Shown: piece by piece, positions 3,213 to 61,544 of the stretch
Layout of the letters: each line of letters opens with the position of its first letter
How positions within the stretch are numbered: the stretch's first letter is position 1
Source of the DNA: a virus
Direction: 5' to 3' (one strand)
Length of the DNA stretch: 64,000 nucleotides
Virus record (IMG/VR): IMGVR_UViG_3300042566_000599
Coordinates: 32,346-96,345 of that record
Translations under genes and position numbers: made by a program
The notes under the pieces: generated by a model
Database searches by the model: none
What the model was told of the DNA's origin: nothing
What the model saw: only the letters and a program-made list of their open reading frames with translations

Positions 3213-4490
3213 ATGGCGTATGTCGTTCAGCGTGGGTCACGATTTACAGGCTATTACCGCATGGGCAAAAAACGCCTGTCTGCTGGCACATGGGGCAGTT
3301 TCAAGGAAGCCCAGTATCAGGCACTACGCATGGAGAATGGGGCTTCTGAGGGGCTTTCAAGGGCTAATTTGACCCTCTCTGAGTATGCCGATAAATGGCT
3401 TCAGAGGGCTGAATTACTGCCTATCACGAAAAAGGGGTATGAATCCCTATGGAAGAGGTACTTAGCCCCTCAAATCGGCTCTAAACAGGTTTCTGAGGTA
3501 TCCACGCTTGAAGTGAGGGAATTGCTGGGCGAATTGAAGGCTCAGGGGGTAGGGGGCGCGACTCTCGCTCAAATCAAGGCGTGTCTAGGCTCTCTCTACA
3601 AATGGTTACAAGAGGGGCAAATTACTCAAACCAACCCAACTAGGGGCATAAAGGTCAAAGTGGGCAAATCGGACATCTCCAATGTGGTCGAGCCTGACCA
3701 GTTCAAGAAGATTGTGACCCACCTACCAACAGAGGGTGCAAAGTTATTTGCAAAGTTCTTAGTTGCTTCAGGGGCGAGATTCGGTGAGGCAAGTGAGATT
3801 CGATTAAAAGATTTTAATTTCAATACAAAAGAAGTTTTTATTCAGAGGCGTGTCAGCGAGTTAGGCAAGAAGCACAACAAGGGAGAAAGATTCCTAGTCG
3901 TAGATGCCACTAAGTCGGGTTACAAGCGTGTAGTGGTGCTACCTGAAGCCCTACTACAAGAGATTCAAGCGTATGTCATGCTAAATCGCATAGGGAAAGA
4001 CGACCTAGTGTTTGAGAAAAGCAAAGTCATACCAAAAGATAAACTAAAGAGTTCTCGTGGCACAGAAAAGTCTTCACGACCATTCGTGAAAGACGGAAAA
4101 CTGTTCCAACATGGCACGCTCAGGGCTTACGCAAGTGGGTCTTGTAGGTGTGATGAGTGTAAGGCGATAGTTCGAGAGTATCGAAGGTCGCAAAGAGCAA
4201 AGTCATACCAAAAGGGTGAGGTCATACCAAAAGAACCGAGCCACTTGCCACGAGATACATGGAGAACCATTTGGAACAAAGCAATAGCCAAATCAGGCAT
4301 GGGTTGGAGTCCAAGAACTCACGATTTGCGTCACGCAAACGCAACGCAGTTACTTAAAAACGGCGTTGATGTGCATGAAGTAAAAGAGCGATTGGGTCAC
4401 CAGTCCATCAAAACTACCGAACGCTATCTCCACCGCGTTCGTCACCAGAAATCAAAGGCGAGTGAAGTTGTCAATGACTTTCTGGGTTAG
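3213..4490 (+). CDS. Tyrosine recombinase (phage integrase) with inserted zinc motif
   Basis: A 425-residue site-specific recombinase. Residues 1-45 form an arm-binding AP2-like strand domain, 55-145 the SAM-like core-binding domain, and 160-425 the catalytic domain. The active-site residues are visible: Arg189 (GARFGE), Lys234, His370 and Arg373 (HDLRH), His396 (LGHQS) and nucleophile Tyr405 (TTERYLH). Odd feature: between the beta-sheet Lys and HxxR, residues 272-336 form an extra segment with HGTLRAYASGSCRCDEC (His300, Cys311, Cys313, Cys316), a small actinobacterial zinc motif. Its DNA is bounded by direct repeats. GGGGG 8 bases before ATG is the ribosome site. It probably integrates and, with the HTH protein upstream, excises the phage. 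Confidence 0.95.
   Translation: MAYVVQRGSRFTGYYRMGKKRLSAGTWGSFKEAQYQALRMENGASEGLSRANLTLSEYADKWLQRAELLPITKKGYESLWKRYLAPQIGSKQVSEVSTLEVRELLGELKAQGVGGATLAQIKACLGSLYKWLQEGQITQTNPTRGIKVKVGKSDISNVVEPDQFKKIVTHLPTEGAKLFAKFLVASGARFGEASEIRLKDFNFNTKEVFIQRRVSELGKKHNKGERFLVVDATKSGYKRVVVLPEALLQEIQAYVMLNRIGKDDLVFEKSKVIPKDKLKSSRGTEKSSRPFVKDGKLFQHGTLRAYASGSCRCDECKAIVREYRRSQRAKSYQKGEVIPKEPSHLPRDTWRTIWNKAIAKSGMGWSPRTHDLRHANATQLLKNGVDVHEVKERLGHQSIKTTERYLHRVRHQKSKASEVVNDFLG
4021..4233 (+). repeat. Direct repeats bounding the integrase insertion
   Basis: GCAAAGTCATACCAAAAG occurs perfectly at 4021-4038 and 4197-4214. The inner 13 bases, GTCATACCAAAAG, recur at 4221-4233. The copies at 4026 and 4221 are in the same reading frame (both encode VIPK) and lie 195 bases, 65 codons, apart, exactly spanning the zinc-motif segment of the integrase. 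A one-mismatch copy lies at 5106-5123, after the lysin gene. Confidence 0.8.
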
Positions 4491-4498
4491 GAGAACTG

Positions 4499-5074
4499 AT
4501 GAAACTAGAAACACAGAATCGGCTTGTAGTGCTAATTCTCAGCACCGCCTTCCTTTCGGGGTTGTTTGGTGTAGGCAGAGTTAGCCCAGCGTTTAGTCCA
4601 ACACGGGCAGAGGCGTTGGTAGTGCAGGTCGAGCAAGAGTCCAGCGACAAGTTGCTTGTTAAGTTCGAGAACTCTCACAAGTTGAGTGACCTAGAACTAG
4701 TAGCCCTATTGAAAGCAGTAGGGTTCGAAGGCAAAGCATTACGAGAAGCATGGGCAGTTGCGAAGAAAGAATCGACAGGAAGACCGCTCGCGCACAATGG
4801 GAACGCCTCAACAGGCGACAACTCATACGGCTTGTTTCAAATAAACATGCTTGGAGAGTTGGGAGAAGAGCGTCGAAAGAAGTTTGGATTGGATTCCAAT
4901 GCCGAACTGCTAAACCCTGTGGTTAATGCCCAAATCGCTTATCACATGAGCGGTGGGGGCGACAACTGGAGTGCGTGGAAGGGAATGACTCAGCGAACCA
5001 GAGAATGGATAGCAAAGTTCCCTGACACTAAACCAAAAGCCAAAGCAATAGCAAAAGGCAAAGGTAATAACTAA
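4499..5074 (+). CDS. Membrane-anchored lysozyme-like lysin (lytic transglycosylase fold)
   Basis: A 191-residue cell-wall lysin candidate. Residues 8-26 (LVVLILSTAFLSGLFGVG) are a hydrophobic signal or signal-anchor segment. A linker follows, then residues 60-175 carry the SLT/lysozyme-like domain: catalytic Glu91 in AKKESTG, then GDNSYGLFQINM and PVVNAQIAYHMSGG with WSAWKG. The tail after 178 is Lys/Ala-rich. It should cut peptidoglycan from the outside of the membrane and may reach it by the host Sec system without a holin. An AGGAGA site 8 bases after the integrase stop suggests cotranscription with the integrase, an unusual place for a lysis gene. It could instead be a wall-remodelling enzyme used at entry or in lysogeny. 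Confidence 0.75.
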   Translation: MKLETQNRLVVLILSTAFLSGLFGVGRVSPAFSPTRAEALVVQVEQESSDKLLVKFENSHKLSDLELVALLKAVGFEGKALREAWAVAKKESTGRPLAHNGNASTGDNSYGLFQINMLGELGEERRKKFGLDSNAELLNPVVNAQIAYHMSGGGDNWSAWKGMTQRTREWIAKFPDTKPKAKAIAKGKGNN

Positions 5075-5175: not shown

Positions 5176-5907
5176 GTTTATTAAAAACCTCACTTGTTCC
5201 ATGACCTTAGTTCTTTTTGCAGTCAAATATCTTTCTTTTAATGGTTTGAAAGAAGAATATGTATTTGGAGCAGTACTAATTTCTTCTTCTATGTTTTTTA
5301 AAACAGTTGAGTTTATGTAACGTTTAAAAACAATTTTTTTATTAGTCATAAACTCTACATAAAATAAAGGGTCTCCTTCATTAAAGACCATTGTTCTAGA
5401 AGTTTTTGGTAAAAAGTAATTTAAATGATAAGGCCTATACCAAGAACCAATATCAAACTCTCCTGCAGTTAATATAGCCCCAGGTGCAGGAGTATGAGTG
5501 GGAAAATAAGGAGCAGTAAACTTAGCAATTAGGGGCTCATCAGCAACAAAGTTCCACGACAAATCTATGCTTATGTCATCGTAATTTTCGATAGAAGATG
5601 GTCTTGGTTTATAAGAATCAATTAAACAAGTTGAGTCTAGAGTGTCAAACATGACCTTATACTCATCAATGTTCTTAGGGATGTTTGCTTGAAAAGACAC
5701 TTCATTATAAACAGCATAAACGTTCTTTAACAAAGAGGTTGTCGCTGGACATGCAAATATTGTTTTTGGACCGCTATCACTTACTTTTTGTTTTCTAAGT
5801 GCATTAAACACATGCACTGGTTCTGCATAAAGCAGAGTTCTAGAGAATGCCTCTGGGTTATAACCAGAGGCAGTCCAATAGATTGTTATTGTGTCTTTGT
5901 CCTTCAC
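5158..5907 (-). CDS. Unknown protein, distant member of a three-paralog phage family
   Basis: A 249-residue protein I cannot name. It has a central PYFPTHTPAPGAIL stretch and GSWYRPYHLNYFLP, then FNEGDPLFYVEF. These align in order with the PPGYS, FTVLPGIIDTD and GTPLVQYVPF blocks of the proteins at 22469-23212 and 51529-52242, so I place it as a diverged third copy of the same fold (possibly DUF6065-related; uncertain). It overlaps the reductase stop by four bases and is the last gene of the leftward operon. No signal peptide or membrane segment is seen. Confidence 0.5.
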   Translation of the reverse strand: MKDKDTITIYWTASGYNPEAFSRTLLYAEPVHVFNALRKQKVSDSGPKTIFACPATTSLLKNVYAVYNEVSFQANIPKNIDEYKVMFDTLDSTCLIDSYKPRPSSIENYDDISIDLSWNFVADEPLIAKFTAPYFPTHTPAPGAILTAGEFDIGSWYRPYHLNYFLPKTSRTMVFNEGDPLFYVEFMTNKKIVFKRYINSTVLKNIEEEISTAPNTYSSFKPLKERYLTAKRTKVMEQVRFLINKNLVE

Positions 5908-7931
5908 ACGTTGTCCTTAATGAGTTTTATTTCGCAAGCATCGGTTGTGCAGTACGCTTCTCCGATTGCATCTGCTGCCATTCCAGCATACACTCCGCTG
6001 AAATCAATTGGAAAAACTTCCATTGTTGCTGCTTCATACGCTTCTTTAGTTGTTTGGGTGTACGGCATTTGGGGATAAACATGGTTGCCACTTGGTAAAA
6101 ACGAGACTGTCTTTAACTGACCGTCATACATGTGCAACACAGTACCGATAGCAGAAGACTCTGTCTCTGGGTCAAAACTAATAGTGACACTTACAGAGTT
6201 GTCTGACCAGTATCTCTGGGCTGTAGCAGCAAGTGCCATTTTTTCATAAACACTTACCTCTTTCTCTGAACGTATAGCATCTGACTTTACAGGGAAGAAT
6301 ACGACAGAAGTTGTATCTGGAGATTCGTTTGCTGGTTCAACTTTGTAATTAGCCATTTTGAAGAGCGGCAACATAGGGTCATTGTTAGCAAAACGAATAG
6401 CACGCATGAAGTACTCGCCGCCAACAGACCAGTGAACTCCAGGAGATTCTCCAGCAAGAATAGAGACTGTTCCACTTGGCTTTACAGTCGTAGTCTTTAT
6501 TGATTCACGAATACCCAACCACTCAGAATAGTTTTTATCGTAGTTTTGAATAATGGAATAACCTTTATCCATCCACTCACGTAAGGTTGGCAAACCTTTG
6601 TTATCTGCAAAGTTTGCGACTCCAGAGATAGATGTTCCAATGCGACGATTGCGCTGCATGATGGCGTTGGTCTCTTCCCAGTGAGTAGGAAGAAGCGTTA
6701 CAGTCTTTGCATAGAGATATGCAAACTTTAGGGTGCGCAGGAAGTCTTCCAAGTTCTCGTGGCGATTTAAGTAGGTTTCAACCAAAGTACAGCACTCATA
6801 CGATTCAAGAGACTGTTCGGCACAGGGGTTGTAGCCAGCAGCACGCCAATCTTTATTGTTTGCAGGGTCAGCAAGCCGACCGTACTTACGAGTAACATCC
6901 ATCCAGATAACTCCAGGCTCACCATTACGAGCAATGCCGTCAATGATTGGGGTCAAGTCTTGGCCAACAGATACCTCAACAGAGTTGTTGGACATCCAGC
7001 CGTGAGTCATACGCTCTGGATACTTGTCGTAGTTCTTTAAATTTAAGAAGTCTTCATCGTCAAGTCGTCCCATTAACAACTCGGCAGAACGACGAACATT
7101 TCCAGACACAACACAAACACCAATCATGTTTCCAATGTCTGCAATGTCTCTACGAGTTAACTTTTGACCTGCACGACCGTTAAACATCGAACGAATCAAG
7201 TCGTGAAGTTTGATTAGTGGGTCTGGTCCTGCTGCGGTTCCACCGAACGTCTTGATTGGTTCGCCTGCTGGACGGACTGCTTCGTAATTAAATACTGGAT
7301 TCTTCGAATCTGGTCGTAAGTAGGAATTGATGAGGGCTGCGGTCGATTCGACCCAGCCTTCTCTGGTGTCTGGGATGTCATACGGTTGGTCTCCTTGTGG
7401 TGCGTAGATAGTGAACTCTTTGTCTGCGCCCTTATCATCAAAGCCAACTCCAACTCCAAGCATTGATGCTTCCATTAAGAATGCGAATGGTTTTGCTGGG
7501 TCTGTCTTTGTCATGGAACCAGTTGATACAAATGCACAGTTCTGTAGGGCTGCTGAATTTCGTTGAACATTCACTAGAGGAGTGCCCATAACCCACAGTC
7601 CGCGTCCTGGCGGTGTCCACTTCAAGTTAAATAGTCGGTCAAAGGCTTCTTTAGCAGAGGCTGCTGCTTTGGCGTCAGACCAAGGGAGTCGTTGACTTTT
7701 GGCGTGGTCCTTTTGAAGAGAGTACATACCGTTGATGACGCGTTCACATACGTCGACCCATGTCTCTTTCTGACCATCTTGCTTTAGGCGAGAATAGGTT
7801 CGAAGGAAAGTGATTTCACCAACCGAGTTTCCACCAGCATCTCGATAGCCAAACGGTGCTTTCTTGTCCTTGTACTGGGCAATAAAGTCGTCAGTTAATT
7901 TAAAAGAAAAGTAATTCATTTCCCCTACCAT
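5904..7931 (-). CDS. nrdJ: Adenosylcobalamin-dependent ribonucleoside-triphosphate reductase (class II)
   Basis: Reduces ribonucleotides to deoxyribonucleotides using a thiyl radical made from coenzyme B12; in phages it raises the dNTP supply. Residues match the Lactobacillus leichmannii enzyme: Cys132 (NCAFVSTG), the thiyl Cys370 and Glu372 in NPCAEQ, Cys381 eleven residues later, and the C-terminal pair Cys661/Cys666 (YCTTDACEIK), five apart as in the model enzyme. At about 675 residues it is slightly shorter than that enzyme (739). The start is uncertain: the ATG at 7919 (MNYFSF) lies just after AGGGG, whereas the ATG at 7931 has no clear ribosome site. It needs B12 from the host; I see no cobalamin riboswitch upstream. 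Confidence 0.93.
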   Translation of the reverse strand: MVGEMNYFSFKLTDDFIAQYKDKKAPFGYRDAGGNSVGEITFLRTYSRLKQDGQKETWVDVCERVINGMYSLQKDHAKSQRLPWSDAKAAASAKEAFDRLFNLKWTPPGRGLWVMGTPLVNVQRNSAALQNCAFVSTGSMTKTDPAKPFAFLMEASMLGVGVGFDDKGADKEFTIYAPQGDQPYDIPDTREGWVESTAALINSYLRPDSKNPVFNYEAVRPAGEPIKTFGGTAAGPDPLIKLHDLIRSMFNGRAGQKLTRRDIADIGNMIGVCVVSGNVRRSAELLMGRLDDEDFLNLKNYDKYPERMTHGWMSNNSVEVSVGQDLTPIIDGIARNGEPGVIWMDVTRKYGRLADPANNKDWRAAGYNPCAEQSLESYECCTLVETYLNRHENLEDFLRTLKFAYLYAKTVTLLPTHWEETNAIMQRNRRIGTSISGVANFADNKGLPTLREWMDKGYSIIQNYDKNYSEWLGIRESIKTTTVKPSGTVSILAGESPGVHWSVGGEYFMRAIRFANNDPMLPLFKMANYKVEPANESPDTTSVVFFPVKSDAIRSEKEVSVYEKMALAATAQRYWSDNSVSVTISFDPETESSAIGTVLHMYDGQLKTVSFLPSGNHVYPQMPYTQTTKEAYEAATMEVFPIDFSGVYAGMAADAIGEAYCTTDACEIKLIKDNV

Positions 7932-16830: not shown

Positions 16831-17118
16831 TTAACTGGCTGTAATGACGAATACGATGGCGCTTATCTCTCCATCGCGGCTTTCAATTGTCGTAAAACCT
16901 GGCTTACAGGTTAAGTCCATGCCACGAGGAGCGACATAGCCACGAGAAATTGCGATTGCTTTTACAGCCTGGTTCACTGCTCCAGCGCCTACAGCACGTA
17001 GTTTGACCTCGTGCTTTTCATAGATTGCATGAGCGATTGCTGATGCAACGGATTGAGGGTTTGACCCTGCGCTTACTCGTAAAAACGGTTCTTCTGTAGA
17101 GGTTACTTCTATAGTCAC
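16831..17118 (-). CDS. spoVS: SpoVS-family protein
   Basis: A 95-residue protein that matches SpoVS almost end to end: LRVSAGSNPQSVASAIAHAI, VGAGAVNQAVKAIAISRGYV and a closing SAIVFVI strand. SpoVS has an Alba-like fold and can bind nucleic acid; in Bacillus it affects septation and sporulation, but homologs occur in non-sporulating bacteria and phages. Here it may alter host cell-cycle expression or coat DNA; both are inference. The 55 bases before it hold no clear promoter. Confidence 0.85.
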   Translation of the reverse strand: MTIEVTSTEEPFLRVSAGSNPQSVASAIAHAIYEKHEVKLRAVGAGAVNQAVKAIAISRGYVAPRGMDLTCKPGFTTIESRDGEISAIVFVITAS

Positions 17119-17173: not shown

Positions 17174-17752
17174 CTAATCTCTGGATTGGTCTCGATATTT
17201 GATGTCCTGAATTTGGGTTACGACAGCCTCTTCTACCTTGTCCTTGGCTATACCAGCAGCCAATCTAGCCAGAGCGTATGAGTCGGCAGCATTATCGTCG
17301 TTGAATTCTATGCCCCATCTTTTATATATTTGCAGCAACATCTCTTGCTTTTTAGCGTTCCCTTTACCTGCTGCATACTTCTTTAAAGTCATTGGAGGAA
17401 CCATTACTGGAAATCTAATGTCGTCATCAAAGTAGTCGTAGATGGTCAACTTTACTAGAGCAGATAGTTCACCCAGTACTAATGCGGAATGACTAGCAAG
17501 CACAGTGCCTTCCATCGCAATTTTCTGTATGGCATGAGTTTCAGAAATGTAGTCAAGATGGTCAAACAAAAATTGACGAATGTCTACTAGACGCTCAACA
17601 CCAAAGTAAGGTGATTTGTATACCCAAGTGTGATACTTAGACGGTTGATTAATTTGCAAAGCAGTGAAGGCAAATCCAGTAAGAGATTGGTCAATGCCTA
17701 TTGTTACCGAGTTACCATCTTCAAGATTACCGTCAAATGATTTGGTCGGCAC
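17174..17752 (-). CDS. RuvC-like Holliday junction resolvase
   Basis: Resolves branched DNA left by recombination and replication, allowing packaging. The RNase H-like fold is marked by Asp21 in VTIGIDQSLTG, the Glu of KIAMEGTVLASHS after the second sheet, and the paired acids in NDDNAADSYALA. KKYAAGKGNAKKQEM is the typical DNA-binding loop. At 192 residues the size fits. It overlaps the DUF6378-like gene by 20 bases and leads into the recombination block. Confidence 0.85.
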   Translation of the reverse strand: MPTKSFDGNLEDGNSVTIGIDQSLTGFAFTALQINQPSKYHTWVYKSPYFGVERLVDIRQFLFDHLDYISETHAIQKIAMEGTVLASHSALVLGELSALVKLTIYDYFDDDIRFPVMVPPMTLKKYAAGKGNAKKQEMLLQIYKRWGIEFNDDNAADSYALARLAAGIAKDKVEEAVVTQIQDIKYRDQSRD

Positions 17753-18017
17753 GGCGCTCTCTTTCGGTAATTACCATGTCAACAGTTCCTAGATAACCAG
17801 CGCCGTCTACCAAGTTATCCCTCTTATGTTTGTAGGCTTCTCTTGCAATCTTTACCCAAGTCATAGCAAGACCGACCTGTTCTTCTGTAAGTTCTATATT
17901 AAAGATTACTTCCCATCCCTTTTTGATTCGATTAAAGTTATCAAGGGGATGGTCGTAAGACTCATTTCTGTCATTGTTTATTAACTGGTGTGCTTCAGGC
18001 AAAATTGGTTCACTCAT
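17733..18017 (-). CDS. DUF6378-like protein
   Basis: A 94-residue protein starting MSEPILPEAHQLINNDR, chosen because its ATG overlaps the protease stop (ATGA); a longer reading would begin inside the protease. It contains ESYDHPLDNFNRIKKGWEVIF and AMTWVKIAREAYKHKRDNL, the conserved core of a widespread phage family whose fold may be MazG-like (all-alpha NTP pyrophosphatase). Its ExxxYxHP pattern supports that only loosely. Confidence 0.6.
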   Translation of the reverse strand: MSEPILPEAHQLINNDRNESYDHPLDNFNRIKKGWEVIFNIELTEEQVGLAMTWVKIAREAYKHKRDNLVDGAGYLGTVDMVITERERRADQII

Positions 18018-18889
18018 GGAATTAGTACATACCTTCCTGTTAGCCATTGGTTAGATGCAGTTGTTGTTGCGATGCTTGCGTATGTCTCATTAATTGTTGA
18101 CTTCAAGTTCTTCATCCACCACCCAGCAAAAGCAGCAGTGGAATTGGACGTGCCTACAGCAAATTGTTTTGTGCCATTCATTGCAGTATGAAAGAAACGA
18201 CCATTAGTGTAGAAGTCAGTAGATGTGTGGCCATTGCTGTACAAAGCAATAGTTGGAGTTGCGTCTTTATTCCAAGCCTCGCCACCTCGTAATGCAGGAT
18301 TATCGGTTGCTCCAACAGAGACTACATCAGCAATACAAGCAGGAACAGCGATATTGGCTCTGTTCTTTTCATTACCAGTGGAAGCAATTACTGCTACCTC
18401 TTGTTGTTTCAAGGAAGAAATTGTTCCAGTTAATTCGGATGTTGCTCTACATGGAGCGTTTACTTTTCCTTGAGAGATGCTAACGGCTTTAATATTGTGT
18501 TTAGAAGCATTTGCTACAACCCATTCAAGAGCCTTGGTAATATCGTCAATGGTGTAAGCACCTGCTCTACCATTAGTGCTCAATCCAAGAACTCGAATTA
18601 ACACAACTTTTGCATTAGGATTTACTCCTGTAAGAATTGAAAGCATGGTTGTCCCATGAGCAAAGGCTGGAAGTGAATTGGCTGCAACCGACGCTGCTCC
18701 AGTGCCTTCTTGAAAACGTGTTCCGTTAGGACAGGCTGCGTTAGAAACAATACAAACTTCGTGAACTACATTGTTTGGAAACAAAGATGCATTAAACCCA
18801 ACATCAATAATTGCAACAGTAGGCGATTGTGCGTTGGCTGGATATAAACCCCCAACCAATAGTAAAACTACAACCAATAACTTTTTCAT
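18014..18889 (-). CDS. Secreted subtilisin-like serine protease
   Basis: A 291-residue S8-family protease. Residues 1-20 are a clear signal peptide ending ANA-Q. The triad is visible: Asp29 (VAIIDVGF), His78 (AFAHGTTML) and Ser248 (AVGTSNSTAA), with oxyanion Asn173 in STGNE. It lacks an obvious prodomain, since the catalytic Asp follows the signal peptide by nine residues. It should be exported and act outside the cell or at the envelope. It lies between recombination genes with four-base overlaps on both sides, so it is expressed with DNA-processing proteins, an odd partnership. Possible roles are shaving host surface proteins, acting in lysis, or processing virion proteins after release. 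Confidence 0.88.
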   Translation of the reverse strand: MKKLLVVVLLLVGGLYPANAQSPTVAIIDVGFNASLFPNNVVHEVCIVSNAACPNGTRFQEGTGAASVAANSLPAFAHGTTMLSILTGVNPNAKVVLIRVLGLSTNGRAGAYTIDDITKALEWVVANASKHNIKAVSISQGKVNAPCRATSELTGTISSLKQQEVAVIASTGNEKNRANIAVPACIADVVSVGATDNPALRGGEAWNKDATPTIALYSNGHTSTDFYTNGRFFHTAMNGTKQFAVGTSNSTAAFAGWWMKNLKSTINETYASIATTTASNQWLTGRYVLIP

Positions 18890-19353
18890 ACGTATTCCCT
18901 CCTTGGCCCTCCAGCCGTTCTACGAGTTATCTCTCTTGAAACTAAAGTGATGTCTCGTTCTTGGTTATTAAGCATCATTTCTAGAATCTTGCGACGAGCA
19001 TACTTCTCTTCGAACTTATCTTCAAGTTCTAAAACTTCAGAATCAACTGCAATCTGTGCTCTAATCAAAGTTACTTTATCGCCTTTTGTTGCAGAACCCA
19101 TTTTCTCTACCATTAGACGATTAGTCTTTAGGTCTAAGGCTCGTTGAGCCCCTCTTTCCTGTAACTGCGATTCCGCTAACTGAGAGGCTATGTAATCGGC
19201 CCAACCAGTTAACACAGTAAACAACTCAGCCAACTGCTCACTACTAAGAGAAGTAATGTCTGGCGGTAGAGGAGTTAACTCATAGGTGGGTTTTGGTACT
19301 TCAACAGCCTTTTCTAATAAAGGGTCCCAAGTATTTACGGAATTAAGTCGCAT
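18886..19353 (-). CDS. Hypothetical coiled-coil protein in recombination cluster
   Basis: A 155-residue, mostly helical protein with a long charged segment from about 60 to 140 (LELEDKFEEKYARRKILEMM) likely to form a coiled coil. Position beside the Cas4-like nuclease and near the RecA gene recalls recombination mediators such as T4 UvsY, which are similar in size and helical, but there is no sequence signature to confirm it. It overlaps the nuclease by 19 bases. Confidence 0.5.
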   Translation of the reverse strand: MRLNSVNTWDPLLEKAVEVPKPTYELTPLPPDITSLSSEQLAELFTVLTGWADYIASQLAESQLQERGAQRALDLKTNRLMVEKMGSATKGDKVTLIRAQIAVDSEVLELEDKFEEKYARRKILEMMLNNQERDITLVSREITRRTAGGPRREYV

Positions 19354-20183
19354 TGTTTACACCCATCTCTAGATACGTTGCATTTAGGTATAACATCAGC
19401 ATCTACTGCATCAATTACTTTTTTAGCAGCGTTAAAAATTCTTTCAACAATTTCAAAATCAGCCTTTACTGTGAACTCTTTGTAGTCCTGGTCTGCTTTC
19501 AACTCATAAAGAAACACAATTTCTTTAGGCGCTTCATCTCCATACATACGACTAGCCAGTTCTAAGTACATTTGACCCTGCAATAGGTGACTGCGAAATG
19601 GTCTACGAATATTCTTCCAAGCCCTTGTAACATCACCATCAGCATCGTACAAAAGGTCTGGAGCCTCAAACCTCAGAGTTCCTGCTCCAATAGACTTTAT
19701 TTCTATCAAACAATCTTCACCAAGGTTCTTAATCCAACCATCTGTATGACCAGAAATACGTAATGAGTCTTCTCTAAGACTTACTTCACCGTACTCTAAA
19801 ACATCACATCCGCAATGCTCACACTCTTTAGGTGACAGTCCAAAAGTAATACCTTTGCAATAAACACAATTAAACTTTCCATACAAGTTACCCATTTCAT
19901 AAAAACGGTTTTGCCATTTTTCATGGATGGCGTGCCCTTCGTCAAAGATGTTCTGTAGTCTAAGAGACGGTTTGTCTGGCTTCTTTTTACCGCCTTTTAA
20001 TAGGTAAAAAGAATACCTATGACACCAATCAGACTTGATAATTTCAGATGGGTGTAAAACATCTGTTCTTCGGTCTGACTCTGGGCTACGCAAAAGGTGT
20101 CTCTCTACATCACCTATAAGACGTGTTTCAGTCTTTTTGGCATCCAAGAACTTCTTTAGGTCTTTCGACGCTTGAACTGGCAT
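19335..20183 (-). CDS. Cas4/RecB-like PD-(D/E)XK exonuclease
   Basis: A 282-residue nuclease. The active site shows as Asp148 (GHTDGWI), Glu161-x-Lys163 (LIEIKSI) and Gln202 (LLQGQMYLEL). Cys54 plus Cys268, Cys275 and Cys278 (CNVSRDGCKQC) repeat the Cas4/AddB arrangement that holds a [4Fe-4S] cluster. In addition CVYC at 106-109 and CEHC at 121-124 form an inserted zinc ribbon. Phage proteins of this type make 3' ends for the RecA-like recombinase. No other CRISPR gene is present, so this is not a CRISPR adaptation module. Confidence 0.85.
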   Translation of the reverse strand: MPVQASKDLKKFLDAKKTETRLIGDVERHLLRSPESDRRTDVLHPSEIIKSDWCHRYSFYLLKGGKKKPDKPSLRLQNIFDEGHAIHEKWQNRFYEMGNLYGKFNCVYCKGITFGLSPKECEHCGCDVLEYGEVSLREDSLRISGHTDGWIKNLGEDCLIEIKSIGAGTLRFEAPDLLYDADGDVTRAWKNIRRPFRSHLLQGQMYLELASRMYGDEAPKEIVFLYELKADQDYKEFTVKADFEIVERIFNAAKKVIDAVDADVIPKCNVSRDGCKQCDLIP

Positions 20184-20500
20184 TACACATCCTTACTAAA
20201 TATAAACTCTTCTAAGGTCATTTTCTTTTTGTATTTTTTTTGCCACTTTCGTACTAAAGCGTTCCTTTCTCGATGAGAGAGTCCTCCCCAAATTCCATGA
20301 GGCTCGTCTCTAGAGACTGCGTCCCATAAACATGCGTTTTTAACTGGACAGTGAGTTTTTCCGTTCTCACCAAAACAAAAAGCCTTTGCTTTTTCAGCAA
20401 TGACTTTGTACTGCTCCTTATCTCGTGGTGGATAAAAGAGGTCAGTATCTTCTCCTGAGCATTTAGCCTGATATCTCCAGGCGTACTCTGGTTCTTCCAT
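20183..20500 (-). CDS. Second WhiB-family protein with altered cysteine spacing
   Basis: Cys14, Cys42, Cys51 and Cys57 with GIWGG at 69-73 identify WhiB. The central pair is not CxxC: CFGENGKTHC puts eight residues between the second and third cysteines, while the last interval (x5) is normal. A basic C-terminal tail follows. It lies inside the replication block, transcribed opposite to the other WhiB gene, so the two are probably expressed at different times. The stop is one base from the nuclease start. Confidence 0.85.
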   Translation of the reverse strand: MEEPEYAWRYQAKCSGEDTDLFYPPRDKEQYKVIAEKAKAFCFGENGKTHCPVKNACLWDAVSRDEPHGIWGGLSHRERNALVRKWQKKYKKKMTLEEFIFSKDV

Positions 20501-20821: not shown

Positions 20822-21059
20822 GTTCTATTTTGCCTTCCTCGTAACCGTGAAGCAACTTAGGAACTATATAGAACAAGGTCTCTCTCCAAAAACACCTGTT
20901 ACAGCCACAAAAAGGTTCTCCCGATAATGTTTCAGTGACCTCTTCATCTGCTCCTTCAGAATAAACGGCTTCGAATAACATGTCGGTGTAGGTCTCTACC
21001 CCTCGTTCTAACTCTTCTGCCCATTCTGGGTCATTTACAAAAAACTCCTTCTCAGTCAT
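20811..21059 (-). CDS. Hypothetical acidic protein with CxCxxC motif
   Basis: An 82-residue very acidic protein containing FCGCNRCFWRET, a CxCxxC cluster that may bind zinc, flanked by helices. Unrecognised. It overlaps the recA-like gene by eight bases and the resolvase by eleven. Confidence 0.5.
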   Translation of the reverse strand: MTEKEFFVNDPEWAEELERGVETYTDMLFEAVYSEGADEEVTETLSGEPFCGCNRCFWRETLFYIVPKLLHGYEEGKIELEE

Positions 21060-22098
21060 CGGAACCTACTGATATCGCGTCTGTAGATTCAAGAACAAGT
21101 TTTTCTAACTCTTCTTTTAAATCCAATTCACTGCGAAGACTGTCAATGACAGACTCAGTGCCTTGCCATTTTCTTTCACCGTAGTAATACCATCCACCCT
21201 TACGCTCTATAACCCCTTTGACGACTGCAAGAGCAGCGATTTCTTTAGCAAAGTCATACTCTCCAGGAAGGCAAGCGCCACCATTTGTAAAGTAAAAGTC
21301 AAAATATGCAACTCTTTGTGGGGGAGCCGTTTTATTCTTAAGAGTCCTAACCTTGATTCGTTGACCAATTCGGACCTTATTGTTACCTGAACCAAGTTCA
21401 ATCCATTCATCTCGACGGATTTCACACCGAGTAAAAAATGCATAATTCTTTCCCTCACCTCCAGGAGTGGTGCGAGGGTCTCCGTGCATTACACCAATCT
21501 TCATGCGGTACTGATTGATGACAATACCCAATACTGGGCGTTCTGCTTCAACAAGGCTTCTTTTCATTGCAGTACCGACAACTCTAAAGAACTTGTTAGT
21601 TAGTAGTGCTCCTCTTCCTACAGTTGCTTCGTCCATATTCTTTTCTAACTCAGGAGAAGGTGATAAGGCTGGAAGAGAGTCGATAACAATTGCGTCTACA
21701 GACTTAGACTCAGCAAAAGCAATGACTGCATCATAGGCTTCTTCCATAACGCTAGTCTCAACGACAATAACTCTGCTGGTATCGACACCACACATTTCAG
21801 CATATTCAGGTACCCATGCTTCTGCTGCAACCCAAACAGTTGTGAAGTTTGGGTCTTTCTCTTGATTAGCAGCGATAGTTTTTAAGGCTACTGCTGTCTT
21901 TCCATGAGACGGTTCGCCAATTAATTCATTCCATTGATTTCCAGGAAATCCACCGCCCAAGACATAGTCGAGAGTTGTAGAACCGCTGGTAAACCTAGGA
22001 ACAAGGTCAGAACGAATATCATTAGCAAACACAACAACGCCATCACCAAACTTTTTATTAAGTTGTGCGACAATCTTTTTTGCCTCATCAGTTATCAT
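21052..22098 (-). CDS. recA: RecA-like recombinase
   Basis: A 348-residue strand-exchange ATPase. GEPSHGKTAVAL is the Walker A loop, with VDAIVIDSLPAL as Walker B and VINQYRMKIGVMHGDPRTTPG as the L1/L2 region. The N-terminal oligomerisation helix of bacterial RecA is short, as in UvsX-type phage enzymes. It acts with the Cas4-like nuclease, the probable SSB and the resolvases. The start overlaps the previous stop. Confidence 0.9.
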   Translation of the reverse strand: MITDEAKKIVAQLNKKFGDGVVVFANDIRSDLVPRFTSGSTTLDYVLGGGFPGNQWNELIGEPSHGKTAVALKTIAANQEKDPNFTTVWVAAEAWVPEYAEMCGVDTSRVIVVETSVMEEAYDAVIAFAESKSVDAIVIDSLPALSPSPELEKNMDEATVGRGALLTNKFFRVVGTAMKRSLVEAERPVLGIVINQYRMKIGVMHGDPRTTPGGEGKNYAFFTRCEIRRDEWIELGSGNNKVRIGQRIKVRTLKNKTAPPQRVAYFDFYFTNGGACLPGEYDFAKEIAALAVVKGVIERKGGWYYYGERKWQGTESVIDSLRSELDLKEELEKLVLESTDAISVGSDD

Positions 22099-32188: not shown

Positions 32189-33131
32189 AGCGCTCTAACT
32201 GCGCTCTTCCAGACATAGAGTTTTGAAACTCTCGTCCATCACTTGCGGTTAGAGTTGCCATCTTAACAGTTGGCGTTTTCTCTTGTGCAACTCGACCAAG
32301 TCCTAAACTCTCTCTGGCTTGGTTCATCTTCTTGCCAAATGACGCTAAGTAAAGTTTATAAAGGCTTGGAGCCTCGTCACCAATCTGCTTAAAGTTACGT
32401 TCATCAACCATAAACAGACGAAGCAACTCAAGTTCTATGAGAGCGGTTGTTCCGTATTGTTTTCTAAACTTTGACAGTGCTCCTGACAGCGCTCTGACAT
32501 TGACGGTTCCTGGGAGGAGGGGATACTTGCGCCCAACCCGAAAAGAAAACTCTGCAGCGACATCCATTGGGGTCCACTCATGCTCTGGACGCTTGCCGCG
32601 TGTTTTCGGGTCGCGTTTAGAGATTTTCTGCGTTGGTGCATCTTTTGGTTCAATGAGTCCAAAGCCTGCCAAGTCGTCGCCATCGTCATAGTTTTTCATA
32701 GGAACCTTCACTTCCTTTAGTGAAACACCTTCGGTGTTTCTAAGTTCTTTTAATTGATTACTATTTTGGCTATTAGGTACTAATGGCTTATTAGTAGATT
32801 GGCTACGTGGACTATTAGTCACGTAGTCATGTGAGGTGCGGTAATTTGAGTCCTCTTCAGCGCGGTAATTTGAGTCCTGTATCTCAATCATGAGTAGGCT
32901 GTTGAATCCGTTGGCACGTCGAGTCGGAGAGGTCTTAATGAGGCCCTGCTTCTCAAGTTCCTTAAGAGCCCTTCTAACGGTCTTATCGGACTTCTTGTCA
33001 GTCTCTCTACCCAAAGCCTCTATTGAGGCCTTAAAACGGCCTCTGGAGCCCGAAAAACGGCATAGTACGACCAACAGTCGGAACTGATAGTCGGTTAATT
33101 GGGCGGTAAACGCCTCCTGAGGGATTTTCAC
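32151..33131 (-). CDS. Winged-helix replication initiator-like protein
   Basis: A 326-residue protein. Residues 10-85 form a winged helix (TDYQFRLLVVLCRF; DKTVRRALKELEKQGLI) as in phage O/DnaD-type initiators. Residues 86-150 are Ser/Asn-rich linker containing an eight-residue tandem duplication, DSNYRAEE then DSNYRTSH. The C-terminal half is helical and may bind the loader. The linker DNA carries the repeats and AT-rich tract described as a possible origin. It is the promoter-proximal replication gene, and its product may also control the operon. Confidence 0.65.
   Translation of the reverse strand: MKIPQEAFTAQLTDYQFRLLVVLCRFSGSRGRFKASIEALGRETDKKSDKTVRRALKELEKQGLIKTSPTRRANGFNSLLMIEIQDSNYRAEEDSNYRTSHDYVTNSPRSQSTNKPLVPNSQNSNQLKELRNTEGVSLKEVKVPMKNYDDGDDLAGFGLIEPKDAPTQKISKRDPKTRGKRPEHEWTPMDVAAEFSFRVGRKYPLLPGTVNVRALSGALSKFRKQYGTTALIELELLRLFMVDERNFKQIGDEAPSLYKLYLASFGKKMNQARESLGLGRVAQEKTPTVKMATLTASDGREFQNSMSGRAQLERYEKKIQGESNSV
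32722..32878. other. Candidate replication origin inside the initiator gene
   Basis: GCGGTAATTTGAGTCCT occurs perfectly at 32838-32854 and 32862-32878, a 24-bp period. Immediately beside it lies an AT-rich tract (about 32741-32800) with repeated CTATTAG/ATTAGTA units, the inverted pair CTACGTG (32803-32809) with CACGTAG (32820-32826), and a perfect 8-bp hairpin GAAACACC-TTC-GGTGTTTC (32722-32740). Iterons next to an AT-rich stretch within the initiator gene is the plan of lambda ori inside O. Only two iterons are seen, so a simple coding duplication remains possible. Confidence 0.4.
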
Positions 33132-58434: not shown

Positions 58435-58719
58435 TTATAGAGTCACTCCTCCACCATCGTAGGAACTTGTATAAGCGTCGCTTCCAGCGTTTTCATCTCC
58501 GCCTTCTGCAGTTGTATCGTAGGTATCAGAACCAGCGGCTTCATTACCGCCTTCAATAAGGTCTGCATCAGCAATTGGAACTAGTTGAAGCCAAGAAACG
58601 CCATCAAAAGCAAAAAGACGACGCTCGTCTGTGTTCCAGTAAAGGTCGCCTGGAAATCGACCAAGAGGAATGTTATCAGAGGCGAAAACATTTACTGGAA
58701 CAAGGGCTTTTCTGCTCAT
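58435..58719 (-). CDS. Short fiber-base protein
   Basis: A 94-residue protein. Residues 1-48 (MSRKALVPVNVFASDNIPLG, GDLYWNTDERRLFAFDGVSW) resemble the N-terminal fiber anchor of the 941-residue protein (QIYFDTVLGFLRVWNGSAW). The remainder has two copies of an acidic EGG(N/D)E(A/N)AGSD segment. Without a collagen arm it may be a free adaptor or cap. One base separates it from the large fiber gene. Confidence 0.6.
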   Translation of the reverse strand: MSRKALVPVNVFASDNIPLGRFPGDLYWNTDERRLFAFDGVSWLQLVPIADADLIEGGNEAAGSDTYDTTAEGGDENAGSDAYTSSYDGGGVTL

Positions 58720-61544
58720 TATCCAATAACCGCCACGACGTAAGAGTCAGTTGTTGGGGCTTCTGCAAACTTTACAGTGACTGTGTTAGTTGTTGATTTT
58801 TCAACATCTACAACAACTTCCTCATAGTTTGCAGCGGCGTTGTATACAGAGACAAGTACACCACGTGTTCCAAAGTTGTGTGTAATCGTGAATGATGTCG
58901 CGCTATTATCGCCAATTGTGGTTGTATATTTACGGGCAACTGTGGTTGTGTCAATTGCAACGTCATCAGCGTTGGCTACGATACCTGTGCCAGCACCAAC
59001 GTTAAATGTTGTGCCAGTTTGAGTTAAACCGTTTCCAGCAGTGAAGGCGCCTGCGCCTGAGAACTGTGTAAAGATTAAGTTTGTAGAGTTAAGGGTAATA
59101 GTCTCATTTGTTGAGAGAACCCAACCAGTGTCTGCTTGTCCACCTTCTTCTACGAAGGTAAAGAGACCTGCAGTTACTTCGCCAGTCTCGTTGGCATCTT
59201 CTGCACGAACAAGCACCCAAGGGGTTGAGCCAGAGCCCTTGTGGAAGACAAAGTAAATACCGTGGTAAGCACGATTTCCACCAGACTCATTCTTTACAAG
59301 AACTCGTTCGTTGTCTTCTAGTGCAACAGAGTCAACTGATAGAGCGGCATTTGCGTTAGCAGTGAGTGTTCCACCATTGGTGCTTGTGTAGGTGTACGCA
59401 GGAAGTGCTGAGGCTGTTGCTGCTCGTACAGACTCTTTAACATCAAGTCCTTGAGCAACTCCGTCTACGTAATCCTTTGTAGCAATAACTGATGTATCTA
59501 CATCAATTGTGAAAGTCTGTTGAGCGCCATTGTAGGTAGTGTTAATACCTGTTCCATCAACAACCACTGTCTGCAGAGCGTCATTTACACGCTGTACTGA
59601 GAAGTATAGGTTTGTGGAACCTTCTGGAACATCATCAGTATCAGCAATTGTTGCTGTGATATCGCTAGTAAGGGCGATAGTACCTGATGCATCTGGAAGA
59701 CTGATAGCGTTATTACCAGTTGGAGAAATTGCGCTTAATGTTGTTGTGTACTGAGTACCTTCAAAGCCTGCTCCAGTAGATGCAGTAAAGGCATCAAATG
59801 AAACCTGGTCTCCAGCCTTTGTTAAGGCGTAACCTGCAGTGATTGGGTCGGTCGTACCAGTAGCACCCTGTGTACCTTGAGTACCCTGAGTTCCCGCAGT
59901 GCCCTGTGAACCTACAGTGCCTTGAACGCCTTGTGCAGCAATTAATGTCCAGTAAGTTCCTTCTGTAGGAGTGTCTCCAGTGTTGCCACCGTGAGCGTCG
60001 ATGCGGTACCAAGTCTGTCCTGCGTATGTTGCAACATCGCCGACTGCGTATGAAGTTCCAACACCATAAGCACCAGTAAAGTTCCAAAGGGCTGCTGTAC
60101 CTTGAGTACCCTGCGCACCTTCGGTACCTTGAGTTCCCTCAGTTCCTTGAGCACCCTCGATACCTTGTGTACCGTTAGCACCGTCTAGACCTTGAATACC
60201 GTCTGCACCTTGAGTACCTTGAACGCCCTGAGTTCCCTGTACGCCCTGAACGCCCTGTTGTCCTTCGACGCCTTGGGCTCCTTCGGTGCCTTGAGTGCCC
60301 TGTGCACCTTCAGTTCCTTGAGTACCCTGCTGTCCTTCAGTGCCTTGAACTCCCTGTGCACCTTCTGTACCTTGGGCGCCCTCTGTACCTTGAGCACCTT
60401 CTGCTCCCTGAGCACCTGTAGTGCCCTGTACGCCTTGAGCACCCGTTGTACCTTGGGCTCCAGTGTCGCCCTTGTCACCGACACGAGCAAATGTGATGTA
60501 CACATTGGTGTCGTTAGTAAACGAAGATACAGTACCTGTTACGTAGGCAATAGGAATGGAGTGCCAAGTTCCGCTGTCAGTGCTTGTTCCAACAATTTGG
60601 AAGAATAAGTACTGTGAAGAGTTTGCTGTGTTTGTAAGTTTAAAAGTTCCTTTGATGCCTGATGTTGAGTCATCGATTGTTGCAATCAACTGACCAATGT
60701 CATTGGAGTTAAAGTCAACATCATCAATATAAAGTTCTGTAGCAGAAGTTAATGTTGTAGTGTCAAACGCTACATTGCCTGAACCTGGGTCTTGTTCAGT
60801 GGTGCTTGTTATGTAATTGTATTCGTGGGTTTCTCCACCAAAAGAACCAGTAGCACCTTGGGTACCTTCTGTACCTTGAGCACCTTCTGTTCCTTGAGCA
60901 CCTTCTGTTCCTTGAGCACCTTCTGCACCTTGTGCACCTTCGGTACCCTGTGAACCTACAGTGCCTTGTGCACCTTCAGTACCTTGAGTTCCTTGAGCGC
61001 CCTCTGTTCCCTGTGTTCCCTGAGAACCTTCAGTTCCCTGTACACCTTGTGTACCAAGAGTTCCTTGTGTACCTTGTGTGCCCTGTGTACCTTGTACACC
61101 CTGCTGTCCTTCAACACCCTGTGTACCTTGAGTGCCTTGCGTTCCATTAGTGCCATCTAAACCTTGAGCACCCTCAGTTCCTTGCGAACCAACAGTTCCT
61201 TGCGTACCTTGTGCTCCAACTGTTCCCTGTGTTCCTTGAGCACCGACAGTACCCTGTGCACCTTGCGTACCATTTGCACCATCAAGACCCTGTGCACCTG
61301 CCGTTCCTTGTGCACCCTGTGCACCCGTATCGCCAGTAGCGCCCTGTGTACCCTGGGTACCTTGCGCACCAGCGCTTGTGCTGACCCATGCACTTCCGTT
61401 CCAAACACGGAGAAACCCAAGAACAGTATCAAAGTAAATTTGACCAACTACTGGTGTGGATGGCGCAGTTGCTAAGTTCTGAATTCGAGCATTCTGAAGT
61501 TCTAACTTAGTTAAATCAATAGGGGTTAAGTATTTGCGTGCCAC
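58719..61544 (-). CDS. Large collagen-like tail fiber
   Basis: A 941-residue fiber. Residues 1-58 are an anchor (MARKYLTPIDLTKLELQNAR; YFDTVLGFLRVWNG). Residues 60-232 are a collagen-like arm of Gly-Thr-Gln/Gly-Ala-Gln triplets, 233-360 a beta domain homologous to the other fiber, 361-490 another arm. Residues 491-540 look like a CBM5/12-type module (FTGAYGVGTSYAVGDVATYA), 550-580 a short arm, and 585-941 a long beta-rich tip. The tip has YSVQRVNDAL-like and WVLVRAEDANETG segments. This is probably the main receptor-binding fiber. Confidence 0.85.
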   Translation of the reverse strand: MARKYLTPIDLTKLELQNARIQNLATAPSTPVVGQIYFDTVLGFLRVWNGSAWVSTSAGAQGTQGTQGATGDTGAQGAQGTAGAQGLDGANGTQGAQGTVGAQGTQGTVGAQGTQGTVGSQGTEGAQGLDGTNGTQGTQGTQGVEGQQGVQGTQGTQGTQGTLGTQGVQGTEGSQGTQGTEGAQGTQGTEGAQGTVGSQGTEGAQGAEGAQGTEGAQGTEGAQGTEGTQGATGSFGGETHEYNYITSTTEQDPGSGNVAFDTTTLTSATELYIDDVDFNSNDIGQLIATIDDSTSGIKGTFKLTNTANSSQYLFFQIVGTSTDSGTWHSIPIAYVTGTVSSFTNDTNVYITFARVGDKGDTGAQGTTGAQGVQGTTGAQGAEGAQGTEGAQGTEGAQGVQGTEGQQGTQGTEGAQGTQGTEGAQGVEGQQGVQGVQGTQGVQGTQGADGIQGLDGANGTQGIEGAQGTEGTQGTEGAQGTQGTAALWNFTGAYGVGTSYAVGDVATYAGQTWYRIDAHGGNTGDTPTEGTYWTLIAAQGVQGTVGSQGTAGTQGTQGTQGATGTTDPITAGYALTKAGDQVSFDAFTASTGAGFEGTQYTTTLSAISPTGNNAISLPDASGTIALTSDITATIADTDDVPEGSTNLYFSVQRVNDALQTVVVDGTGINTTYNGAQQTFTIDVDTSVIATKDYVDGVAQGLDVKESVRAATASALPAYTYTSTNGGTLTANANAALSVDSVALEDNERVLVKNESGGNRAYHGIYFVFHKGSGSTPWVLVRAEDANETGEVTAGLFTFVEEGGQADTGWVLSTNETITLNSTNLIFTQFSGAGAFTAGNGLTQTGTTFNVGAGTGIVANADDVAIDTTTVARKYTTTIGDNSATSFTITHNFGTRGVLVSVYNAAANYEEVVVDVEKSTTNTVTVKFAEAPTTDSYVVAVIG
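60085..60470 (-). repeat. Collagen-type tandem repeats, second arm of large fiber
   Basis: The second run of nine-base repeats, following the duplicated beta domain and ending before the CBM-like module. Shared nucleotide stretches with the first arm and with the small fiber gene give ample room for recombination between genes. Confidence 0.75.
60850..61370 (-). repeat. Collagen-type tandem repeats, first arm of large fiber
   Basis: Nine-base repeats coding for Gly-x-Gln/Glu triplets. The middle is dominated by GTQ and GTE (GTEGAQGTEGAQ), so this arm differs in charge from the small fiber's. The same DNA sequence read backward gives long Ser/Leu/Thr-rich frames on the plus strand that are not genes. 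Confidence 0.8.

Follow-up and report, generated by a model that had tools for sequence, protein, structure and literature searches.

A predicted secreted protease shared by phage and host, apparently swapped in and out of one replication-gene slot, suggests that a virus edits proteins outside the infected cell

The closest described relatives of the viral protein considered here are subtilases, serine proteases of the S8 family. The classical S8A subtilisins (e.g., BPN' or sphericase) are exported and combine the complete fold with an Asp-His-Asn-Ser set of residues. The mycosins of type VII secretion (TIGR03921) are actinobacterial, exported, and carry a C-terminal membrane anchor. Short subtilase domains are found in the processing enzymes QhpE and PatA (NF049966 and TIGR03895, respectively), and short exported subtilases are encoded on Nanopelagicales chromosomes. 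Phage S8 proteases are already known as well, from viral structure predictions and from PHROGs. A0A6J5NRV7, present in BFVD and 27% identical to the protein described here, and phrog_3677 represent S8 domains from uncultured tailed phages; these are larger proteins, since the best match is 487 aa long and the match to phrog_3677 lies deep in a profile of 1125 positions. What appears to be new is a propeptide-free exported type of the enzyme in these phages, its fixed slot, its clean exchange as a cassette, and its traffic with host chromosomes. A literature search, which was incomplete and is weak evidence in this respect, found no published work on this protease.

The gene is located in a window of 64,000 nucleotides, corresponding to positions 32,346 to 96,345 of the IMG/VR record IMGVR_UViG_3300042566_000599 (96,345 bases). 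The first-pass annotation of this DNA reported a signal-peptide subtilisin overlapping both neighbouring genes by four bases. The overlaps are exactly 4 nt (ATGA) on each side, and the orientation of the gene, on which that annotation was silent, is the minus strand. The genes and borders, in the direction of reading, are as follows.

21052..22098, minus strand: RecA/UvsX-like recombinase (PF00154, 3.5e-48)
20183..20500, minus strand: WhiB-like regulator, a marker of actinobacterial phages (PF02467, 1.1e-17)
19335..20183, minus strand: Cas4-like PD-(D/E)XK exonuclease (phrog_2506, 2.4e-30)
18886..19353, minus strand: p155, a 155-aa protein, conserved upstream neighbour of the subtilase (conserved synteny)
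18886..18889, minus strand: 4-nt ATGA overlap of the subtilase start with the stop of the 155-aa gene (18886); left cassette border
18014..18889, minus strand: S8 subtilase of 291 aa, predicted to be exported, signal peptide and catalytic domain, propeptide absent (ORF, fold model, profile matches, 37-member alignment)
18014..18017, minus strand: 4-nt ATGA overlap of the subtilase stop with the start of the DUF6378 gene (18017); right cassette border
17733..18017, minus strand: DUF6378 protein, downstream neighbour of the subtilase (PF19905, 9.2e-19)
17174..17752, minus strand: RuvC-like Holliday junction resolvase (phrog_159, 1.5e-24)

The resulting order is WhiB–Cas4–p155–subtilase–DUF6378–RuvC, with RecA and DNA polymerase upstream; p155 has no family match in Pfam or PHROGs. 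The subtilase ORF starts with ATG behind a strong ribosome-binding site (AAGGAGGGAATACGT-ATG). Because the surrounding minus-strand genes, including those for DNA polymerase A and for a Holliday junction resolvase listed besides the RuvC-like one, overlap almost without gaps, expression of the subtilase together with the replication genes is likely. It is probably co-transcribed with replication and recombination genes, and the ATGA couplings thus speak for the earlier proposal that it is expressed with nucleases and RecA. A promoter scan of the operon gave fewer matches than were obtained in shuffles and was set aside. The RuvC gene is adjoined, in all relatives seen, by a gene for a SpoVS-like protein (16831-17118, minus strand; phrog_35646, 1e-27). 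Elsewhere, the window encodes a tyrosine integrase (3213-4490, plus strand; PF00589, 5.6e-24) and, next to it, a lysozyme-like SLT protein that seems to have a membrane or signal segment (4499-5074, plus strand), a class II (B12-dependent) ribonucleotide reductase (5904-7931, minus strand; PF17975, PF21995), and, amid structural genes, a 941-aa protein with collagen-like repeats (58719-61544, minus strand). The phage may be temperate, and since it carries the integrase, a role of the subtilase in lysogeny is conceivable, a point against the reading preferred below.

The protein is an S8 subtilase, having the catalytic order, the oxyanion Asn, and the alpha/beta fold of subtilisins. The window protein alone has no match in Pfam or PHROGs; its close and distant relatives match Pfam Peptidase_S8 with E-values down to 7.1e-17 (45-62 bits against a gathering score of 21.8). 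With phmmer, the single sequence finds subtilases among solved structures at 2e-9, and the family profile matches 95 chains of known structure, with a lowest E-value of 3.5e-14. A first structure model, built from 10 near-identical sequences, reached a pLDDT of 46 and was discarded in favour of a 37-member alignment. From these 37 homologues, AlphaFold2 gave a complete subtilisin fold with a pLDDT of 87.8 and a pTM of 0.88. Compared with solved subtilisins (sphericase, BPN', and others), this model shows VIA Z values of 26-27 over 226-240 residues, including a match at Z 27.4 over 239 residues and 2.5 A. The signal peptide and catalytic residues are located as follows.

18830..18889, minus strand: predicted Sec signal peptide, residues 1-20 (MKKLLVVVLLLVGGLYPANA), cleavage after AxA (composition; AxA in homologues)
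18803..18805, minus strand: codon of catalytic Asp29 (invariant in phage and host copies)
18656..18658, minus strand: codon of catalytic His78 (invariant, 37/37)
18371..18373, minus strand: codon of oxyanion-hole Asn173 (invariant, 37/37)
18146..18148, minus strand: codon of catalytic Ser248, GTSN motif (36/37; the one exception is the in-frame deletion in L009/L029)

The intact Asp-His-Ser triad and oxyanion Asn noticed at first reading are conserved in phage and host copies alike. Loss of the triad among homologues, which the first reading had named as evidence against its proposal, was looked for, and all four residues are kept in every intact copy. In an alignment extended to chromosomal proteins of down to 29% identity, the invariant positions are Asp29, His78, Asn173, Ser248, four cysteines (Cys46, Cys53, Cys147, and Cys185), and structural residues. 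The exception at Ser248 is a 150-nt in-frame deletion that strips the region of the catalytic serine (L029, 8001-8723, the same contig as L009); it is seen in a single contig and may be an assembly artefact. The dN/dS ratio of the subtilase is about 0.08-0.18, i.e., the gene is under purifying selection. The claim of a signal peptide is also borne out by prediction: on heuristic assessment, every complete homologue has a basic start, a hydrophobic core, and an AxA or similar site, and cleavage of the window protein is predicted at MKKLLVVVLLLVGGLYPANA|Q. The low confidence of the fold model at residues 1-20 is compatible with a cleaved segment. The four invariant cysteines would be apt for an oxidising extracytoplasmic location, where two probable disulphides would stabilise the enzyme. 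That virus and Nanopelagicales have in common an exported S8 protease is, in our opinion, nearly certain.

The comparison with the described systems reveals clear differences. The phage enzyme is 20-25% identical to S8A subtilisins and, unlike them, lacks the N-terminal extension and the propeptide, has four conserved cysteines, and apparently misses the calcium loop. In all homologues the gap between signal peptide and first core strand is just 3-4 residues long, leaving no I9 propeptide, and the structural match begins at residue 22 of the window protein, which corresponds to residue 25 of subtilisin BPN'. The region after His78 aligns ungapped to an engineered, 266-residue BPN', and this form outscores the natural 275-residue one against the subtilase family. 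The nine residues absent from the engineered form make up the loop that holds the main calcium site; PDB titles describe such loop-less BPN' forms as calcium-independent. Removal of this loop makes subtilisin folding less dependent on the prodomain. The main calcium loop of classical subtilisins is thus apparently missing in the phage enzyme, which may be calcium-independent and may, for want of this loop, fold alone. In nature it would thus combine the lack of a propeptide with the apparent lack of the main calcium loop, as is otherwise seen in engineered subtilisins. The best curated family by score is that of the mycosins (46.3 bits, 3e-12). Membership was nevertheless rejected at a TIGR03921 cut-off of 278.75; moreover, the phage protein ends at the catalytic domain (residue 291, ...NQWLTGRYVLIP) and lacks the mycosin membrane anchor, and no type VII secretion genes were seen near the subtilase. 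Weak matches to QhpE and PatA are given by 37/37 and 30/37 family members, respectively; however, the window protein scores below the curated cut-offs, and no amine dehydrogenase or cyanobactin genes were seen nearby. The Nanopelagicales chromosomal subtilases are direct homologues, 29-71% identical, of the same architecture and with the same invariant residues, differing in their stand-alone chromosomal settings.

The slot was analysed in related phages gathered via the neighbouring Cas4-like protein, not via the subtilase; the set, ordered by how similar its members are to the window phage, contains some redundancy. Among 72 contigs with both flanks, the slot holds a subtilase in 39 and none in 33. 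This survey of synteny, proposed in the first-pass annotation, also bears on its view that phage-encoded secreted subtilases are rare: a tblastn search of named phages finds almost nothing, but about half of the phage's own uncultured relatives carry the gene, and other S8 proteases exist among viral protein structures, so that this view has to be qualified. A match in a named phage, 'Acinetobacter phage MD-2021a' (CAKLQH020000003.1, L011), was set aside, as astB/astE, gltR, and transporter genes surround it and it looks like bacterial chromosome.

In subtilase-free phages the upstream stop overlaps the next start directly by the same ATGA, which argues for exact gain or loss with translational coupling kept. 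Presence differs even between phages whose Cas4-like proteins are 99-100% identical (L075 versus L007 and L015; L066 versus L008 and L065). In other near-identical pairs, both with the gene, alleles only 43-56% identical stand between flanking proteins of 96-99% identity. In L072 and L081 the subtilases are 56% identical and both Cas4 and RuvC 99%, and at the DNA level the flanks are mostly 90-99% identical against 61-72% in the subtilase ORF, with the borders at the ORF. In L112 and L125 the values are 43% for the subtilase, 96% for Cas4, and 99% for RuvC. A second sharply divergent segment between L072 (6851-7298) and L081 could be another swapped gene. Synonymous divergence is lower in the subtilase than in its neighbours, which hints at recombination but could reflect composition. 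Enrichment of allele variation around the substrate cleft was looked for and not found; the argument for specificity therefore has the swapping pattern as its one basis.

Other genes occupy or adjoin the slot in some relatives. A secreted low-complexity protein is an alternative occupant (L078, 4329-5000; L089, 2901-3461), and a Nol-like carbamoyltransferase lies in or beside the slot in L099 (7138-8850) and L114 (6256-7923; phrog_1601, 3e-151). In one clade of phages a secreted protein of ~210 aa, with no family match, is coupled directly upstream of the subtilase (L112, 1836-2459; L126, 3486-4109; L127, 1740-2375; L130, 5591-6313; L135, 3150-3785); it is possible that it is a substrate, an inhibitor, or a folding helper of the protease. 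The subtilases of L127, L128, L130, and L131 have no ATG, GTG, or TTG and apparently start at an ATT overlapping the upstream stop; the idea that these truncated ORFs are pseudogenes was rejected, as the frame is intact upstream.

Several data link the gene to actinobacterial hosts. The WhiB-like protein and the nearest polymerases, found in Streptomyces phages, agree with an actinobacterial host, and whiB is also present in cultured Nanopelagicales phages (PMC10202952). The only close match in the genome collection, 71% identical, is from a 'Candidatus Nanopelagicaceae' contig of 42 kb, near its end; the other genes of this contig, named from sequence, are bacterial (proC-like, respiratory complex I). 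A profile search of 201 Nanopelagicales genomes was positive for 15, and between six and ten of the matches have the same short exported architecture. In the trees, phage and chromosomal copies interleave, well-supported branches force at least 5 changes of label, and subtilase alleles of phages group with those of hosts. The 71%-identical host copy is nested among phage copies (support 99/100 and 99/89), the direction of transfer between phage and host depending on the root. The existence of chromosomal homologues, one of them so nested, indicates that phages and hosts exchange the gene, which, with cellular homologues in the presumed host and an accessory distribution in phages, qualifies as an auxiliary gene. 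For the chromosomal subtilase of the G005 type no viral relative was found. Two host genomes carry a short subtilase in a cluster of secreted proteins, beside a large secreted S8 fusion protein (L056, 1282-4406; L057, 7750-13870).

It is proposed that the gene encodes an active, Sec-exported, short S8 endopeptidase of the propeptide-free type of Nanopelagicales (acI) actinobacteria, common to their phages. It would be an early product of the phage's replication/recombination operon, whose genes are translationally coupled. The protein would then cross the membrane, lose its signal peptide, and fold without a propeptide, two probable disulphides stabilising it; its targets may be one or several proteins that the infected cell displays on its outer surface or secretes. 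Such cleavage would serve to edit the envelope in a manner specific to the host lineage; for instance, the loss or alteration of a surface protein would keep additional phages from adsorbing (superinfection exclusion) or progeny from binding to the spent cell. Our leading but tentative reading, with a probability of about 0.4, is that of a host-derived, early, exported protease that attacks the infected cell's envelope proteins and may in this way exclude superinfection. It is preferred because near-identical phages have widely divergent alleles in the slot, or lack the gene there, and because phage alleles cluster with those of hosts. Of the roles suggested in the first-pass annotation, cleavage of receptors or other envelope proteins fits allele swapping best. 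However, the differences between alleles do not cluster in the cleft, host homologues lie beside secreted proteins, which is compatible with general proteolysis, and about half of the related phages manage without the enzyme.

In the main rival, the protease degrades extracellular or envelope protein, and the infected cell, which feeds on peptides and amino acids, can thereby import more material for making phage. The host origin of this family of exported proteases, an accessory distribution like that of other auxiliary genes, and the position with nucleotide-supply and replication genes, the class II ribonucleotide reductase lying elsewhere in the window, are in line with nutrition. We still regard it as rather doubtful: in dilute lake water a secreted protease, if not kept at the cell surface, mostly feeds other cells, neither a peptide transporter nor a peptidase was seen adjoining the gene, and sharp swapping of alleles at an otherwise conserved locus would not be expected of a generic digestive enzyme. 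Another alternative is a selfish or neutral gene that came from the host, settled in a slot where it is tolerated, and brings no strong benefit. Presence, absence, and alternative occupants of the slot would suit such a gene, but dN/dS far below 1, invariant catalytic residues, and a strong ribosome-binding site and couplings preserved over large divergence make it improbable.

Position and distribution speak against roles in lysis and in virion maturation. An exported, proteolytic enzyme, as this one is predicted to be, could weaken an envelope protein layer and aid lysis or release of progeny, particularly as secreted enzymes reach the wall of a Gram-positive host. Lysis, the third of the earlier suggestions, is disfavoured nonetheless by the location in the replication operon, by the exported lysozyme-like gene on the other strand, and by near-identical phages without the subtilase, and has little likelihood. 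Phages also use proteases for head maturation; a virion or prohead protease is, however, very improbable here, given the predicted cleavable signal peptide, the distance from structural genes, and the absence from close relatives. Protection through destruction of protein effectors, such as bacteriocins or toxins, that endanger the infected cell or mediate competition among phages would accord with export and swappable alleles, and many subtilases cut peptides, yet there is no candidate substrate, the subtilase matches no known anti-phage or defence family, and we judge such protection to be a poor prospect. Action on the infected cell's own envelope proteins is the preferred reading. An extension of it, which we consider unlikely, is that the phages reserve the locus for interchangeable exported subtilases without propeptide, traded with hosts, and that the resident allele determines the host surface proteins attacked and thereby the lineages or competing phages concerned.

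No freshwater bacteria are more abundant than the Nanopelagicales (acI); they lack CRISPR, and their microdiversity is believed to be driven by phages (PMC10202952). In the acI-phage system, a phage locus at which predicted exported proteases are exchanged with the host offers a concrete candidate for an interaction at the cell surface. A predicted secreted protease, apparently shared with the host and gained, lost, or replaced at a single position among replication genes, suggests that the virus edits proteins outside the infected cell.
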